DNA of 64,000 nt from Acidilobaceae archaeon (GTDB lineage: Archaea; Thermoproteota; Thermoprotei_A; Sulfolobales; Acidilobaceae). Under the pieces are notes generated by a model. That model did no database searches. It worked only from the letters and a program-made list of their open reading frames with translations, and had not been told where the DNA came from. The translations under genes were made by a program, and so were the position numbers. Position 1 is the stretch's first letter, and every line of letters begins with the position of its first letter. Where the stretch lies: contig JALVZQ010000008.1 in NCBI GenBank assembly GCA_027037535.1, positions 124,001 to 188,000 on the forward strand, given 5' to 3'. Of the stretch, positions 6,086 through 58,783 are shown in pieces.

Positions 6086-6202
6086 GCCGGGGTGGCCGAG
6101 CGGTCGAAGGCGGCGGGCTGCAGCGGAATTCAAAATATCACCTGCCCATCGGCCCGCAGAGACCCGTTACTATCCCGGGTTCGAATCCCGGCCCCGGCTC
6201 CA
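6086..6202 (+). tRNA. tRNA-Cys (GCA) with 38-nt intron
   Basis: Acceptor GCCGGGG pairs with CCCCGGC. The discriminator is T, as in archaeal tRNA-Cys, and CCA is encoded. The anticodon stem GCGGG/CCCGT encloses loop CTGCAGA with anticodon GCA. An intron at 6124-6161 interrupts the loop between positions 37 and 38, the canonical site. The 5' exon GCGGGC can pair with GCCCGC near the intron's 3' end, consistent with a BHB precursor. The T arm is CCGGG-TTCGAAT-CCCGG. Odd: the variable region (6168-6174) is 7 nt, longer than the usual 4-5. Confidence 0.9.
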
Positions 6203-16776: not shown

Positions 16777-16900
16777 TGGTCCCGCCGCGGGGATTCGAAC
16801 CCCGGACCACCCGGTATCTGCAGGGCCCTCCTTCTAAGGAGGGTCCCACCTCGCCCGTGTCCCACTACAGCCGGGCGCTCTGCCGCTGAGCTACGGCGGG
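16777..16900 (-). tRNA. tRNA-Tyr (GTA) with 49-nt intron
   Basis: Read leftwards: acceptor CCCGCCG/CGGCGGG, D arm GCTC-GAGC, anticodon stem CCCGG/CCGGG, loop CTGTAGA (anticodon GTA), T arm CGGGG-TTCGAAT-CCCCG, discriminator A, encoded CCA. The intron at 16816-16864 sits at canonical position 37/38. CTGT of the 5' exon pairs with GCAG at the intron's 3' end, forming the 4-bp central helix with 3-nt bulges AGT and ATA. The intron carries its own CCCTCCT/AGGAGGG hairpin. An AT-rich ACTTAAAC element about 30 nt upstream is the likely promoter. Confidence 0.92.
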
Positions 16901-31170: not shown

Positions 31171-31800
31171 ATGATATTCACTGGGAAGAGAGATATATCG
31201 AGTTCAAATATTATCGAGGAGATAAGTGAGGAAATAGAGTACGATGATTGTACATATCCCCCTTCAGACGACTCATTTCTAGGCATGTCACTTATACTAG
31301 AACTAGCTAGGAGACACTACGAGTTCTCTAAGGTACTTGACCTCTGCACGGGTACCGGGATCCTAGCCCTCGCAGCCCATAGATTACTCGATCCAGACCT
31401 GCTAGTTGCCGTTGATGTTTCGCCTTACGCAGTGCAGGACGCTAGGAGAAATCTTCCGAGCGAGATACTGGTTATCAGGTGTAATCTAGCAGAGTGCATA
31501 CGTGGAACATGGGATCTTGTAATAGTTAACCCTCCCTATCTCCCGTATACTGATGACGTGGATAACTGTGAGGGATTTCTGGTCAACACCTGGAGGGATA
31601 CCGGGGTTCTTAGAAGGGCATGTCTTCAATCAGCTAATATTGCGGATTCGGTTCTTTTCATATATAGTTCTCTGTCTCCTTTCGACGTTGAAGAATGCCT
31701 ATCCTCAAGAGGCTTCGATATTAAGCTGAAACTGGCCAGAGGATTCTTCATGGAAAAAATATATGCGATATACGCTGAGCGGAAGTTCAGGGAGACGTGA
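31171..31800 (+). CDS. HemK/Mtq2-like protein methyltransferase
   Basis: A 209-residue SAM-dependent methyltransferase of the PrmC/HemK/Mtq2 type, which in archaea and eukaryotes methylates the GGQ glutamine of release factor aRF1/eRF1. Visible motifs are YPPSDDSFL near residue 30, VLDLCTGTGILALAAH (motif I), VAVDVSPYAVQDAR (motif II) and the catalytic VNPPYLPY. It follows ksgA by 40 nt, a conserved archaeal neighbour. Confidence 0.9.
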   Translation: MIFTGKRDISSSNIIEEISEEIEYDDCTYPPSDDSFLGMSLILELARRHYEFSKVLDLCTGTGILALAAHRLLDPDLLVAVDVSPYAVQDARRNLPSEILVIRCNLAECIRGTWDLVIVNPPYLPYTDDVDNCEGFLVNTWRDTGVLRRACLQSANIADSVLFIYSSLSPFDVEECLSSRGFDIKLKLARGFFMEKIYAIYAERKFRET

Positions 31801-31804
31801 TAGA

Positions 31805-32536
31805 ATGACTAGATTGAGACTAGTTCTCGTAGAGACAGAAGGTGGAGTAAATCTTGGCATGATAGCGAGGCTCTGCGAAAACTTTGACGTAGACGAATTC
31901 TACCTAGTTAATCCTAAAGCAAGCCTCGAGGAGGCTAAAGAGTACGCAGTACATGCAGCACATAGACTAGATAACGCGGTCATAGTCGACTCACTCAACA
32001 AGGCTTTGGAAGGCGTTGATCTCAGCATCTGTACTTCTGCCAAGACCAGTGAGAGAAACGTGCTAAGGGAACCCATAACCGTGCGTGAGGCTGCGGATCT
32101 CTTTTCCGAGATAGATGGTATTGTTGGACTCGTGATGGGTAGAGAAAGCGTTGGCTTGACACGCGAAGAGCTCAGGAAATGCGATATACTTAGCCATATA
32201 CCTAGTAGTCCCAAGTATCCGGCTCTGAATCTTGCGAACGCGACAGCAATATATCTATACGAGTTCTATCAAGCTAGAACTAGAGGCTCCTCCACGACCA
32301 AGCCTAGCTCCAGGACTATAGGATTACTTGACGCATATACTAGAGCCCTGTCGGAAATCCTCATACATGACGAAATAAAGCAGAAAGACGTGGTCCTCGC
32401 CCTTAAGAGAATAGCGATGAAGAACATTACTCGCAAGAGAGAAATAGATCTACTAGTCTATCTCTTATCAAAGGCTTGTAGGAGGATCGAAGGCTGTGAA
32501 GACAAAGTATCTAGTTACATGCAATCCAGGCCTTGA
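31805..32536 (+). CDS. trmJ: SPOUT RNA ribose methyltransferase, TrmJ-like
   Basis: A TrmH/SPOUT-class enzyme most similar to TrmJ, which methylates ribose 32 of tRNAs. The 243 residues include LVLVETEGGVNLGMIARLCENF (motif 1), GLVMGRESVGLTREEL (motif 2, knotted SAM site) and YPALNLANATAIYLYEF (motif 3). The start at ATG 31805 is preferred over an earlier in-frame ATG inside the HemK-like gene because CGTGAT precedes it and the family begins here. Overlaps the next gene by 41 nt. Confidence 0.88.
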   Translation: MTRLRLVLVETEGGVNLGMIARLCENFDVDEFYLVNPKASLEEAKEYAVHAAHRLDNAVIVDSLNKALEGVDLSICTSAKTSERNVLREPITVREAADLFSEIDGIVGLVMGRESVGLTREELRKCDILSHIPSSPKYPALNLANATAIYLYEFYQARTRGSSTTKPSSRTIGLLDAYTRALSEILIHDEIKQKDVVLALKRIAMKNITRKREIDLLVYLLSKACRRIEGCEDKVSSYMQSRP

Positions 32537-33563
32537 AGACATCGCTGCTAAGGAGATCACCGAGGAATTACCTAGTGCAAGGATACTTCTGCGCAAGGAG
32601 TATAAGGGAAGGATAATTGTTGAGGATGAACAGGACGAATATGTTATGACCCGGCTGATAAAGCTACGAAGCATTCACTCCGCATACATACTATTGGCTC
32701 AGGACACTATTGGCAAGACTGTTTCTGATCTCGATAAAATCTATGCAATTGTCGAGAACTCGAGCATAGACAGGTATATTCCTGCTGGAGCCTCATTCGC
32801 TGTTAGAGCTTCGAGAATAGGTGAAGGACACGAGTATACGAGCATGGATGTAGCCAGGATAACTGGAGACGCTATAGGGAGAGTTTATCTTGAACGATAT
32901 GGCAGTGCTCCTCTCGTCAGATTAAATTCGCCGAGCATAACAGTCTATGCCGAGATAGACGAGGATATCTACAGACTGGGTATAGAAATTACAGGCGAAA
33001 GAAGCCTTCACAGAAGAGGATACAGAATATATGATCATCCAGCCGCCCTTAAAGCTACACTGGCCTATTCAATGCTTAGACTCATAGGAGCCCATGATAA
33101 CAGTGTCATTATGGACCCAATGTGCGGAGGAGGTACTGTTGCTATAGAGGCAGCTCTCTTATTCGAGAATTCAAAGATTCTCTGTGTAGACAAGTTATCA
33201 AAACACATACGGGGAGCAAGAATAAACGCATTAGCTGCAAGAGTCTATAACAGGATACACTTCTATGTACACGATGCAAGAAGACTCGAGGAAATAATTC
33301 CTGAAGATAGCGTCGATTTCGTTGTAAGTAATCCCCCATACGGGATACGCATGGGGGATCCTACTAGCGTCAGAAGACTCTATAGAGATTTCCTGCCCAG
33401 CCTCTACAAAATAATGGCTCCCGACGGAAAAGCTGGTGTAATTACTGCCGACTCACACTACTTCGCAAAATATGCTAGAGAGGCAGGATTCAAAATAACA
33501 AGTGCCAGAAAAGTAAGACATGGAGATCTCTGGGCGACTATCTTCATACTAGAGAAGCACTAG
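32496..33563 (+). CDS. THUMP-domain tRNA guanine-N2 methyltransferase, Trm14/TrmN-like
   Basis: A 355-residue class I methyltransferase with an N-terminal ferredoxin-like plus THUMP domain (about 1-160) and a C-terminal Rossmann domain: VIMDPMCGGGTVAIEAALL (motif I) and VDFVVSNPPYGIRMGD (NPPY, N2-guanine methylation). Archaeal relatives methylate G6 or G10 of tRNA; G6 (Trm14) is my best guess. It starts with GTG, is preceded by GGAGGATCGAAGG, and ends 51 nt before tRNA-Asp. Confidence 0.85.
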   Translation: MKTKYLVTCNPGLEDIAAKEITEELPSARILLRKEYKGRIIVEDEQDEYVMTRLIKLRSIHSAYILLAQDTIGKTVSDLDKIYAIVENSSIDRYIPAGASFAVRASRIGEGHEYTSMDVARITGDAIGRVYLERYGSAPLVRLNSPSITVYAEIDEDIYRLGIEITGERSLHRRGYRIYDHPAALKATLAYSMLRLIGAHDNSVIMDPMCGGGTVAIEAALLFENSKILCVDKLSKHIRGARINALAARVYNRIHFYVHDARRLEEIIPEDSVDFVVSNPPYGIRMGDPTSVRRLYRDFLPSLYKIMAPDGKAGVITADSHYFAKYAREAGFKITSARKVRHGDLWATIFILEKH

Positions 33564-33575
33564 ACACAGGATAAT

Positions 33576-33585
33576 CTTTATAATC
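33576..33585 (+). promoter_or_regulatory. TATA box of tRNA-Asp
   Basis: CTTTATAATC is centred about 35 nt upstream of the first tRNA base (33615), predicting a start site a few bases before the gene. This indicates the tRNA is transcribed independently of the upstream methyltransferase operon. Confidence 0.55.
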
Positions 33586-33654
33586 CATCCCGTGTCTAGA
33601 AAATCATGGCCCGTGCCGCGGTAGTATAGCCTGGCCTAGTATGCGGGCCTGTCA

Positions 33655-34221
33655 AAGGCCCAACCTCCGCCCCCATAATTATCGGTGCACCCAGAAAGGT
33701 CTATTATGGTGTAACGTGCACTACATATAGTATTACTCTAACAGTTTTACCTAGGTAGAAACATGACCATTAAAATGACTCGATGTTACGAATGTTTTAT
33801 AGCAGGCCTCTTGATGGCGGAAGGTGGGTTTGGTAAAAAAGAACACAGAAATGTTGGCAGAGTAACATTTACAAACACAGATCCTAAAATTATAAAAATG
33901 GTATATAATTTTTTTATTAATTATATGAAAATATCTAAAGATAAAGTAAAAATATACGTCTCTTATAATAAAAGTATCGCAATACTTGACGAAGGAGAGA
34001 TACTAAATTTTTGTAAAAATTACTTAAATATACCTGAAAATAACATAAAAATATATAGCTATAATAGAAAAGTGAAGAAAATAAGAAGACGACAGAGTTC
34101 ACAGTACGGTATATGTCAAATTAGAATAAATAATGTTAGTATAAGAAATCTCATAGAAAACTTTTTAAGATCCATACTCCAAACAATTGATGTTCCTGGG
34201 GGCGGAGGAGGGCCTACAGGC
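33655..34221 (+). mobile_element. Mobile-type archaeal tRNA intron encoding a LAGLIDADG protein
   Basis: 567 nt between tRNA-Asp positions 37 and 38. Its ends pair strongly (AGGCCC/GGGCCT, then an 11-bp GC helix), so the splice motif can fold despite the large insert. The interior is visibly AT-rich, unlike the flanking genes, as expected for an acquired element. It holds one ORF (33763-34230) with its own possible TATA element. Archaeal rRNA introns encoding LAGLIDADG enzymes are well known; a tRNA intron doing so is unusual to my knowledge. Mobility is inferred, not shown. Confidence 0.85.
33724..33732 (+). promoter_or_regulatory. Possible intron-internal TATA box for the endonuclease ORF
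   Basis: CATATAGTA inside the intron lies about 35 nt upstream of the ORF's ATG (33763), which would place a start site near 33753 and leave a leader of about 10 nt. If real, the endonuclease could be expressed without transcription of the tRNA 5' exon. Weak evidence: the surrounding sequence is AT-rich anyway. Confidence 0.3.
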
Positions 34222-34230
34222 AGCCCGTGA
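33763..34230 (+). CDS. LAGLIDADG homing endonuclease in the tRNA-Asp intron
   Basis: A 155-residue basic protein with a single LAGLIDADG helix at residues 12-21 (FIAGLLMAEG; Glu20 in the metal-binding position), followed by the RVTFTNTDPKIIKMV stretch typical of this family and Lys/Arg-rich DNA-binding segments. One motif implies action as a homodimer. ATG 33763 follows CTAGGTAG. The frame crosses the 3' splice site at a codon boundary (34221/34222) and stops at TGA 34228-34230 inside the tRNA 3' exon, so the last two residues are tRNA-encoded. Base composition is far more AT-rich than the neighbours. Confidence 0.85.
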   Translation: MTIKMTRCYECFIAGLLMAEGGFGKKEHRNVGRVTFTNTDPKIIKMVYNFFINYMKISKDKVKIYVSYNKSIAILDEGEILNFCKNYLNIPENNIKIYSYNRKVKKIRRRQSSQYGICQIRINNVSIRNLIENFLRSILQTIDVPGGGGGPTGSP

Positions 34231-34379
34231 CCCGGGTTCAAATCCCGGCCGCGGCGCCAGGCCCTTCTCCAAAATTATTCTTCCAGTCAAAGATACCAGT
34301 TATAGGAACGTGTACTACGTAATGGATACGATTTTAGATTTCCAAGACAATATTTCATTCCATGGGGATATTGAGAAAA

Positions 34380-35579
34380 ATGAATATAGACGCCAGTGGC
34401 CTTAGACAGGAGCTACCTAGAGAAACAGCTTGGCTCTTAACAGGACCTTCAAGTATCCGACTAATCAATGGAGAAATTGCAGTAAACGGTTATGTTATCG
34501 AAGAACAAGGTAGACAACTAACTGTGCCTACAGGCAGAAGCGTGCTTATATATGCTATATCAAGCTCTGCGATAGAAGCAACAAAACCACTTTCACGGGT
34601 CAACACCAATGCATATAAGTCATATTATTCCCTCGCTGTTCAAAGCACCGACTATGACAAGACACTTATTATTGGACCTACCGACTGTGGAAAGAGCACC
34701 CTATTCTCGTTTATATCTAATATAAGTCTCGTCGAAGGAAAACCAATAATCCTAGCAACTATTGATATCGGCCAAAACGAGCTCTACGCTCCAGGATTCG
34801 TGACCAAGCTTGAAGCCTCTAACGGCCCCATTATACCTGGATCCATTACAGGAAACACAGAGAACTGTTTTGTCGGCGCGTTTTCCCCATTACACGTCCT
34901 AACTAAATATTTCGGATGTGCCTCGAAGCTCTTGACTAATAATAGACACATAGTAATTGATACTGATGGATGGATATCTATTTGGCAGGGGATAGAATCA
35001 AAAACGGCTATTGCCACAGCTATTAAGGCTGATAACATTATTCTAATGGGGCTCCATGACAAGGTCTTCGAGTATATTAAGTCACGGTTCACTGATACAA
35101 ACATTATCAAATCGCCATGTCTCGCGTCATCAACTAAGAAGACGCGCGAGGAGAGAAGAACTCATCGTGACAGGCTCATAGCTAGACGATTACTAGGTGC
35201 AAAACGTTATTCAATAAATCTAGACGCCATACCCGTATATGGAGGTCCATTATTCTTCGAGTCTTCTTTGAGCAGGGAAGACTACTCGCTACTTCCTGTG
35301 AAACATGTTGTTTACGCTGAAAAAGGACCTAATGGACTGGTAGTAGTCACGAAGCACAAAATACAAACTAGGCTTCCCGGCATAAAGATCCTCCATGAGG
35401 GTTGGGAAAGAGGACTCATCGCGGCCGCGCTCTGTAATGGTAAAGAAGCCTTAGCAGTTATTGAGAGAATCGATTATACCAGAAGAAGGATGCATATATT
35501 ATCTATGTGTATGCCTGAAGCCGTGTTACTAGGATCAGCTAAAGTATCCCTGGAAAGTTATTCGGGCATAATCAGTTAA
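34380..35579 (+). CDS. Clp1/Grc3-family polynucleotide 5'-kinase
   Basis: A P-loop kinase of the Clp1/Grc3 group; characterised members phosphorylate 5'-OH RNA ends, as made by the tRNA-splicing endonuclease. Walker A is GPTDCGKST (about residue 103), followed by the family IDIGQNE motif. The 399-residue length fits. The start at ATG 34380 is preferred over ATG 34362 because GGGGATA lies about 10 nt before it. It sits immediately downstream of the intron-bearing tRNA-Asp, with 120 nt between. Confidence 0.83.
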   Translation: MNIDASGLRQELPRETAWLLTGPSSIRLINGEIAVNGYVIEEQGRQLTVPTGRSVLIYAISSSAIEATKPLSRVNTNAYKSYYSLAVQSTDYDKTLIIGPTDCGKSTLFSFISNISLVEGKPIILATIDIGQNELYAPGFVTKLEASNGPIIPGSITGNTENCFVGAFSPLHVLTKYFGCASKLLTNNRHIVIDTDGWISIWQGIESKTAIATAIKADNIILMGLHDKVFEYIKSRFTDTNIIKSPCLASSTKKTREERRTHRDRLIARRLLGAKRYSINLDAIPVYGGPLFFESSLSREDYSLLPVKHVVYAEKGPNGLVVVTKHKIQTRLPGIKILHEGWERGLIAAALCNGKEALAVIERIDYTRRRMHILSMCMPEAVLLGSAKVSLESYSGIIS

Positions 35580-43199: not shown

Positions 43200-43306
43200 T
43201 GGTGGGCCCGGGGGGATTCGAACCCCCGACCTACGGGTCTGGAGCTTCGACAGACCCTGGAGGCTTCCAGGGCCTCCGCCGCTCTGCCTGGCTGAGCTAC
43301 GGGCCC
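43200..43306 (-). tRNA. tRNA-Trp (CCA) with 30-nt intron at position 30/31
   Basis: Read leftwards: acceptor GGGCCCG/CGGGCCC, D arm GCTC-GAGC, T arm GGGGG-TTCGAAT-CCCCC, discriminator A, encoded CCA. The anticodon loop CTCCAGA (CCA) follows a stem whose 5' strand is split: GCGG, then a 30-nt intron (43246-43275), then G. After removal the stem is GCGGG/CCCGT. The intron contains CCCTGGA/TCCAGGG, and exon CGGC pairs with intron GTCG to give the 4-bp central helix with bulges GGA and AAG. This non-canonical site lies in the anticodon stem. Confidence 0.88.
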
Positions 43307-58237: not shown

Positions 58238-58783
58238 ATGAGTAAGATCAAAGCACTAATGTACTCGACCACAATTATCGTCCCCGATCTCGATGAATCA
58301 GAGAAGCTTTTCAGAGAATTCTACGGGAAACCGGCAGGATACGATAAGCCAAAACCGGGAGAAGCACGGGGACCTCTTATACTCGATCCACTTGAAGCAG
58401 TTTATCTCCTAGAACTAGGAAAACTTGAAGTATATAGGGGCAGTGGAGATCCTGTAAACTATGAGGAACTAGTTGAGTGGGCTCGTGAACGAATCCCTAG
58501 ATTCAATATGTTGTATCCTGTATACAAGGATCTTAGAAACCGTGGGTTTGTTGTAAGATCCGGTCTAAAATATGGGTCAGACTTCACCGTCTATAGGCAT
58601 GGTCCTGGAATCGATCACTCGCCTTACATAGTTCATTCTTATCCCGGCAAGTATACTATTGATCCGGTAGAGATTGTTAAGGCCGGGAGACTAAGCCATA
58701 CTGTTAGGAAAACATTTATTCTTTCAATAACAGGTGGTGAAAGCGATGTCATCTACTTAATGTTTAAATGGTTCAAACCCTAG
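58238..58783 (+). CDS. endA: tRNA-splicing endonuclease, catalytic subunit
   Basis: Cuts BHB motifs in pre-tRNA and pre-rRNA. The C-terminal half matches the catalytic domain: YPVYKDLRNRGFVVRSGLKYG, DFTVYRHGPGIDHSPYIVH and SHTVRKTFILSIT. The probable triad is Tyr119, His127 and Lys158. The 181-residue length fits the catalytic (alpha) subunit; crenarchaeal enzymes are alpha2-beta2, which allows cleavage of relaxed BHBs such as the tRNA-Trp 30/31 intron. I see no structural subunit gene in the window. GGAGGCTAG precedes the ATG. Confidence 0.92.
   Translation: MSKIKALMYSTTIIVPDLDESEKLFREFYGKPAGYDKPKPGEARGPLILDPLEAVYLLELGKLEVYRGSGDPVNYEELVEWARERIPRFNMLYPVYKDLRNRGFVVRSGLKYGSDFTVYRHGPGIDHSPYIVHSYPGKYTIDPVEIVKAGRLSHTVRKTFILSITGGESDVIYLMFKWFKP

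Follow-up and report, generated by a model that had tools for sequence, protein, structure and literature searches.

In the window, i.e. the 64,000-nucleotide (nt) stretch analysed here from the genome of a heat-loving Acidilobaceae archaeon, the gene for tRNA-Asp(GUC) is interrupted at position 37/38 by a 567-nt intron. Judging by its sequence, this is probably a homing intron of the archaeal bulge-helix-bulge (BHB) type. BHB introns that bear endonucleases are well known in archaeal rRNA (PMC4496867); what we describe is this known type of intron, equipped with a homing endonuclease gene (HEG), in a new kind of host gene. An initial sequence-only reading of this DNA had spoken of a new or very rare class of mobile element. 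‘New class’ is slightly too strong, as the HEG-bearing BHB intron was already known. The host gene, the splice motif, the open reading frame (ORF), the homologues at the same site and the empty sites can be read directly from the genomes. Coordinates refer to the window unless a genome label (G-number) stands before them.

The tRNA-Asp(GUC), 78 nt long with its encoded CCA, is assembled from exon 1 (33615-33654, + strand, positions 1-37) and exon 2 (34222-34259, + strand, position 38 to the CCA). Once the exons are joined, the mature sequence is identical at 78 of 78 positions (40/40 in exon 1 and 38/38 in exon 2) to the intronless tRNA-Asp of the same-genus genomes G001-G004. The intron itself (33655-34221, + strand) is exactly absent in G003 and has a GC content of 32%, compared to 44% for the window. 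A promoter-like element of the BRE/TATA type (TFB recognition element and TATA box; TAATCTTTATAATCCA, 33572-33587, + strand) is located 27 nt upstream of exon 1. It scored 7.5 with a position weight matrix built from 40 upstream regions of tRNA genes in the host genome. Both ARAGORN and the Rfam tRNA model missed this gene, and other genes of such architecture would be missed by both programs alike.

As expected of an archaeal tRNA-type intron, a BHB motif was found at both exon-intron junctions, and it is part of a full helix-BHB-helix (hBHBh′) fold. This consists of an outer helix CGGGC/GCCCG, the bulges CAA and GCA, a central helix CTGT/ACAG and an inner helix of 6+11 base pairs (bp). The 5′ bulge CAA lies at 33653-33655 (+ strand), where the known BHB rule predicts a cut after A37 (33654), and the 3′ bulge GCA lies at 34220-34222 (+ strand), with a predicted cut before A38 (34222). 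In the inner helix, the 5′ strand (AGGCCC AA CCTCCGCCCCC, 33656-33674, + strand), which is common to ORF-less introns of the same family, faces the 3′ strand (GGGGGCGGAGG A GGGCCT, 34198-34215, + strand). A 78-nt junction construct gave a folding energy of -54.5 kcal/mol versus -31.9 kcal/mol for shuffled sequences (z = -6.5). The hBHBh′ consensus derived from 5 sequences comprises 26 bp, with compensatory changes in 6 of these pairs. Thus, both the intron-bearing tRNA gene and the splice motif of the sequence-only reading were borne out.

A second copy that would make the interrupted gene dispensable was sought by running the spliced tRNA-Asp against the host genome, which comprises 1.65 Mb in 8 contigs and is 99.94% complete. 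The only 100% matches were its own two exons. No second tRNA-Asp was found in this genome, the other full-length matches being tRNA-Glu (TTC, CTC), tRNA-Gly and tRNA-Ser. The two tRNA-Glu genes differ at 5 of 78 positions. As this is the only tRNA-Asp in a near-complete genome, the cell must either excise the intron or join a tRNA made as two half-transcripts. Two splicing-endonuclease genes (PF01974) and an RtcB ligase are encoded in the host genome.

The 3′ four fifths of the intron are occupied by an ORF of 155 codons (33763-34230, + strand) for a predicted single-motif LAGLIDADG-like homing endonuclease, whose TGA stop codon (34228-34230) lies inside exon 2, a detail to be added to the first description of the ORF. 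When the intron was shuffled 1000 times with preserved dinucleotides, the longest stop-free run reached 138 codons. Pfam family LAGLIDADG_3 (PF14528) matched the window ORF with E = 3.5e-4, and it matched three of the four aligned members (best E 8.3e-5). With a three-row profile, the top sequence match in the PDB was I-DmoI (E = 0.019). Using hhalign, 120 columns could be aligned to an ORF that a member of the phylum has within its large subunit (LSU) rRNA gene (pairwise E 5.7e-9), and the motif region of the ORF profile aligned with an ORF of a small subunit (SSU) rRNA intron. The acidic motif residue E20 (AEGGF/AEGSF) is retained in all aligned ORFs. These profile matches place the window ORF among the relatives of LAGLIDADG proteins, rRNA-intron endonucleases included, in line with the initial assignment; the unrelatedness that a profile search could have revealed was not found.

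Close homologues of the ORF were found in only two of the 214 genomes of the order, G108 and G087, in both cases in tRNA-Asp at 37/38. With a HEG intron in 3 of the 214 genomes, the distribution is sporadic; the three carriers belong to three different families of the order. By segment, the two homologous ORFs are 41-53% identical to the window ORF. In the case of G108, a metagenome-assembled genome of the Desulfurococcales (JAMOPC010000494.1), the intron has 448 nt and an intact ORF of 151 codons that begins at the second base of the intron. In the case of G087, the intron has 451 nt and its ORF is frameshifted. All three ORFs read across the 3′ stem in one common frame and stop at the same TGA in exon 2. 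Identity between the window and G108 ORFs was 0.62, 0.74 and 0.40 at codon positions 1, 2 and 3. Because the divergence is mostly at third positions, the ORF has been under selection at the protein level.

Further close homologues were detected neither in 229 genomes of the class nor in 398 genomes of the phylum, and no relatives were found in plasmids and phages. A single match in a viral contig was rejected as a false positive with a virion protein. A scan of the genome contigs gave no match with the single ORF sequence and one locus when repeated with the alignment. Weaker matches exist in other genomes of the phylum: three of the seven loci tested contain rRNA genes, and these are therefore relatives and not tRNA introns.

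Relatives that lack the intron at the orthologous locus, for which the sequence-only reading had suggested a search, were found as well. G003, from the genus of the window, has an intronless tRNA-Asp at the same locus, with 500-bp flanks that are 98% and 93% identical. Similarly, G141, from the genus of G087, has the G087 locus without intron, with 300-bp flanks 90% and 86% identical. The presence or absence of the intron in such highly identical surroundings, together with its patchy spread, is the signature of a homing intron.

In the mechanism that we propose, the splicing endonuclease would cleave the pre-tRNA at the two bulges and RtcB would ligate the exons. Either unspliced RNA or the circular intron could be the message from which the ORF is translated. 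Since the ORF reads through the 3′ stem into exon 2, its TGA there would serve as the stop in unspliced RNA only; the excised circle would instead end the frame at an in-frame TAA, the intron length of 567 nt being 3 x 189 nt. Single-motif LAGLIDADG enzymes are normally homodimers acting on near-palindromic sites. The intron-encoded endonuclease, probably a homodimer as well, would cut intronless tRNA-Asp at the near-palindromic anticodon arm (CGGGC-CTGTCAA-GCCCG). Repair of this cut from the intron-bearing allele would then copy the intron and allow its spread. Finally, decay of the ORF would let the intron shrink. In the Aeropyrum family, the remnants would be ORF-less introns of 118-187 nt that share the terminal stem and have a TATA-like box inside; the one in A. 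pernix is expressed as two separate tRNA halves, i.e. as a split tRNA.

The tRNA-Asp 37/38 site was surveyed across the order, and these ORF-less introns were found in six genomes of the window's family (G025, G017, G005, G018, G011 and G029). Decay among carriers is seen as the frameshift in G087 and as ORF-less introns that share the window stem. Their terminal stems resemble that of the window (CCTCCGCCCC/GGGGCGGAGG), with P <= 0.012 against shuffled sequences for each and P <= 0.0005 for four of them. None of the 13 other introns tested, two of which are short introns of the same family, matched this type of stem. Local alignment of the G029 intron with the window intron showed identity of the 5′ ends in 21 of 22 nt and of the 3′ ends in 23 of 25 nt. 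The coordinates 372080 and 372241 in G017 are those of the published split tRNA-Asp halves of Aeropyrum pernix (PMC3218864). Fossils of the window's intron hence appear, from this likeness, to sit within the known split tRNA-Asp genes of Aeropyrum. The coordinates 41001 and 41160 in G120 are those published for the split tRNA-Asp of Thermosphaera aggregans. Further split tRNA-Asp genes at 37/38 were seen in G111 and G112; in G111 (C11:132445-166001) the halves lie on opposite strands, 33.5 kb apart, their GC-rich leader and trailer are complementary, and a TATA-like box precedes the 3′ half.

Several results weigh against a homing intron and its proposed decay. The Pfam match of the ORF (21.2 bits) is 1.3 bits below the gathering score of 22.5. 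An AlphaFold2 model of the ORF built from the four-row alignment (pLDDT, the model's own confidence score, 76.7) found no LAGLIDADG fold and no meaningful match when compared to the PDB with Foldseek. The empty site of G003 could reflect loss of the intron rather than a site that never gained it. Moreover, the DNA of the window intron and that of the ORF-less introns are not significantly similar beyond the stem; the fossil relation therefore rests on stem, site and position of the TATA-like box.

This box, AAACTTTTTAAGATCC (34158-34173, + strand), is located in the tail of the ORF, 48 nt before the end of the intron. Its score of 7.5 equals that of the upstream promoter of the tRNA-Asp gene, and its function is suggested by A. 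pernix, where the promoter of the 3′ half was predicted at this same place and the halves were detected on northern blots (PMC3218864). The nine long introns scanned have a TATA/BRE-like box whose end lies 44-52 nt upstream of exon 2, although in G005 and G018 it is weak; two 3′ halves of the Thermosphaera type have theirs at 41 nt. It is thus a tentative possibility, compatible with a homing intron, that the host makes its tRNA-Asp from two transcripts, the 3′ half starting inside the HEG, so that a split tRNA would still house the mobile element. The common placement of the box at 41-52 nt, A. pernix included, argues for this. In the HEG introns, the box overlaps the conserved codons E-N/T-F-L/I. 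When the ORFs were recoded synonymously, a score as high as that observed arose in only 0.5% of trials for the window ORF (G000, the host genome), compared to 5.6% for G108 and 9.2% for G087. On the other hand, AT-rich sequence yields chance boxes: 5.5% of the 12-nt intervals in the window ORF score as high, and the highest-scoring box of the intron lies elsewhere. That the promoter of a split 3′ half arose from HEG codons is our inference and is suggestive. It falls short of proof because a TATA consensus can converge, the interval was picked after the data had been seen and the three ORFs compared are related.

These observations can be brought together with the earlier literature. Chan et al. 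2011 ascribed the split tRNA-Asp of A. pernix to a mobile element of unidentified kind whose target was this site, and inferred that the same tRNA-Asp position had been hit twice by it. The tRNA-Asp homing intron offers a concrete identity for this element, and it could quite possibly, if still short of probably, be what lies behind the split tRNA-Asp genes of the order. A HEG intron would invade 37/38, the TATA-like box in its tail (ENFL/ENFI codons) would come to promote the 3′ half, the HEG would decay and trans-splicing would replace cis-splicing. Subsequently, the halves could be inverted, as in Thermosphaera, or moved tens of kb apart, as in G111. If this is true, at least these split tRNAs originated late, through decay of a selfish intron, and are not relics of an ancient two-piece tRNA, which is directly testable.

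The ORF-less introns could also be read in the reverse order. In this case, a non-coding tRNA-Asp intron would be older, a free-standing endonuclease gene would have invaded it later and the ORF-less introns would never have had a HEG. This would suit the fact that introns with the same stem but no ORF outnumber the HEG form within the family, that no HEG remnant is detectable in them and that the stems of the window-family introns are unlike those of the G108 and G087 introns. We nevertheless consider such a late invasion unlikely. The frame and the exon 2 TGA shared by the three HEG ORFs, and the start of the G108 ORF at the second intron base, imply that the ORF and the intron ends behave as a unit. 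Additionally, G107 (from the genus of G108) and G103 have introns of 36 and 49 nt whose stem is that of G108 (P 0.002 and 0.005), as loss of the HEG predicts.

Less plausible still is a translated ORF whose product no longer acts as an endonuclease, being a dead relic or a maturase-like RNA-binding protein in a vertically inherited intron that is being lost. The frameshift in G087 and the silent Foldseek search would fit this. Against it speak the intact ORFs of the window and of G108, whose divergence is biased towards third positions, the retention of E20 throughout, and the patchy occurrence of the intron in three families, alongside sister species in which the site is empty. Lastly, an assembly artefact or a tRNA pseudogene, for which the odd size alone would speak, can practically be dismissed, since the same architecture recurs in the independent assemblies of G087 and G108, the genome search gave no second tRNA-Asp and the mature sequence is perfectly conserved.

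Compared to known systems, ordinary archaeal tRNA introns share the BHB motif and the canonical 37/38 position. The published ones have 11-129 nt and are non-coding save for a C/D RNA in tRNA-Trp (PMC4090602, PMC3218864), whereas the HEG introns described here have 448-567 nt and carry an ORF. Archaeal tRNA introns were thought to be short and non-coding, and their spread had no candidate enzyme; the window ORF supplies one. In the open-access literature, we came across no earlier description of a tRNA intron of the BHB type that carries an endonuclease.

The HEG introns of 16S/23S rRNA (I-DmoI, I-ApeI type) are alike in the BHB motif read by the tRNA splicing endonuclease, the internal LAGLIDADG ORF, the sporadic occurrence and the detectable ORF homology, I-DmoI being the best PDB sequence match. 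The introns described here differ from them in residing in a tRNA gene that is essential and present as a single copy, and in having an ORF that ends in the downstream exon and forms a distinct subfamily, restricted in these searches to tRNA-Asp.

In bacteria, Bonocora and Shub (2001) reportedly described a tRNA-fMet group I intron with an anticodon-specific endonuclease (cited in PMC3984707). That intron is a self-splicing ribozyme, unlike the BHB intron here. A group I reading of the present intron was rejected, as the Rfam group I ribozyme had no match in the window at the gathering threshold.

The split tRNA-Asp genes of A. pernix and T. aggregans have in common with the window gene the same tRNA, the 37/38 site, a GC-rich stem after the BHB motif and a TATA-like box, which precedes the 3′ exon by 41-44 nt. 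In A. pernix (G017) and in G025, its congener, the stem also matches that of the window intron. Unlike the latter, the split genes have no ORF, with a 121-nt spacer in A. pernix and inverted halves in T. aggregans.

Regarding the surroundings, the neighbours of the tRNA-Asp gene (31763-35579) are RNA-processing genes, namely a SpoU-type methylase, a THUMP/UPF0020 methyltransferase and a CLP1-type polynucleotide kinase. One of the two PF01974 splicing-endonuclease genes also sits inside the window (58502-58756, + strand). Three further tRNA genes of the window, at 6086-6199 (+), 16780-16900 (-) and 43203-43306 (-), have tRNA-model matches spanning 104-121 nt and probably carry ordinary short introns. 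Outside the window, the RtcB gene (G000:C5:76873-79629) is split by an in-frame insertion of 474 amino acids with a LAGLIDADG motif (FLAGLFGADGSK), which from its sequence reads like an intein.
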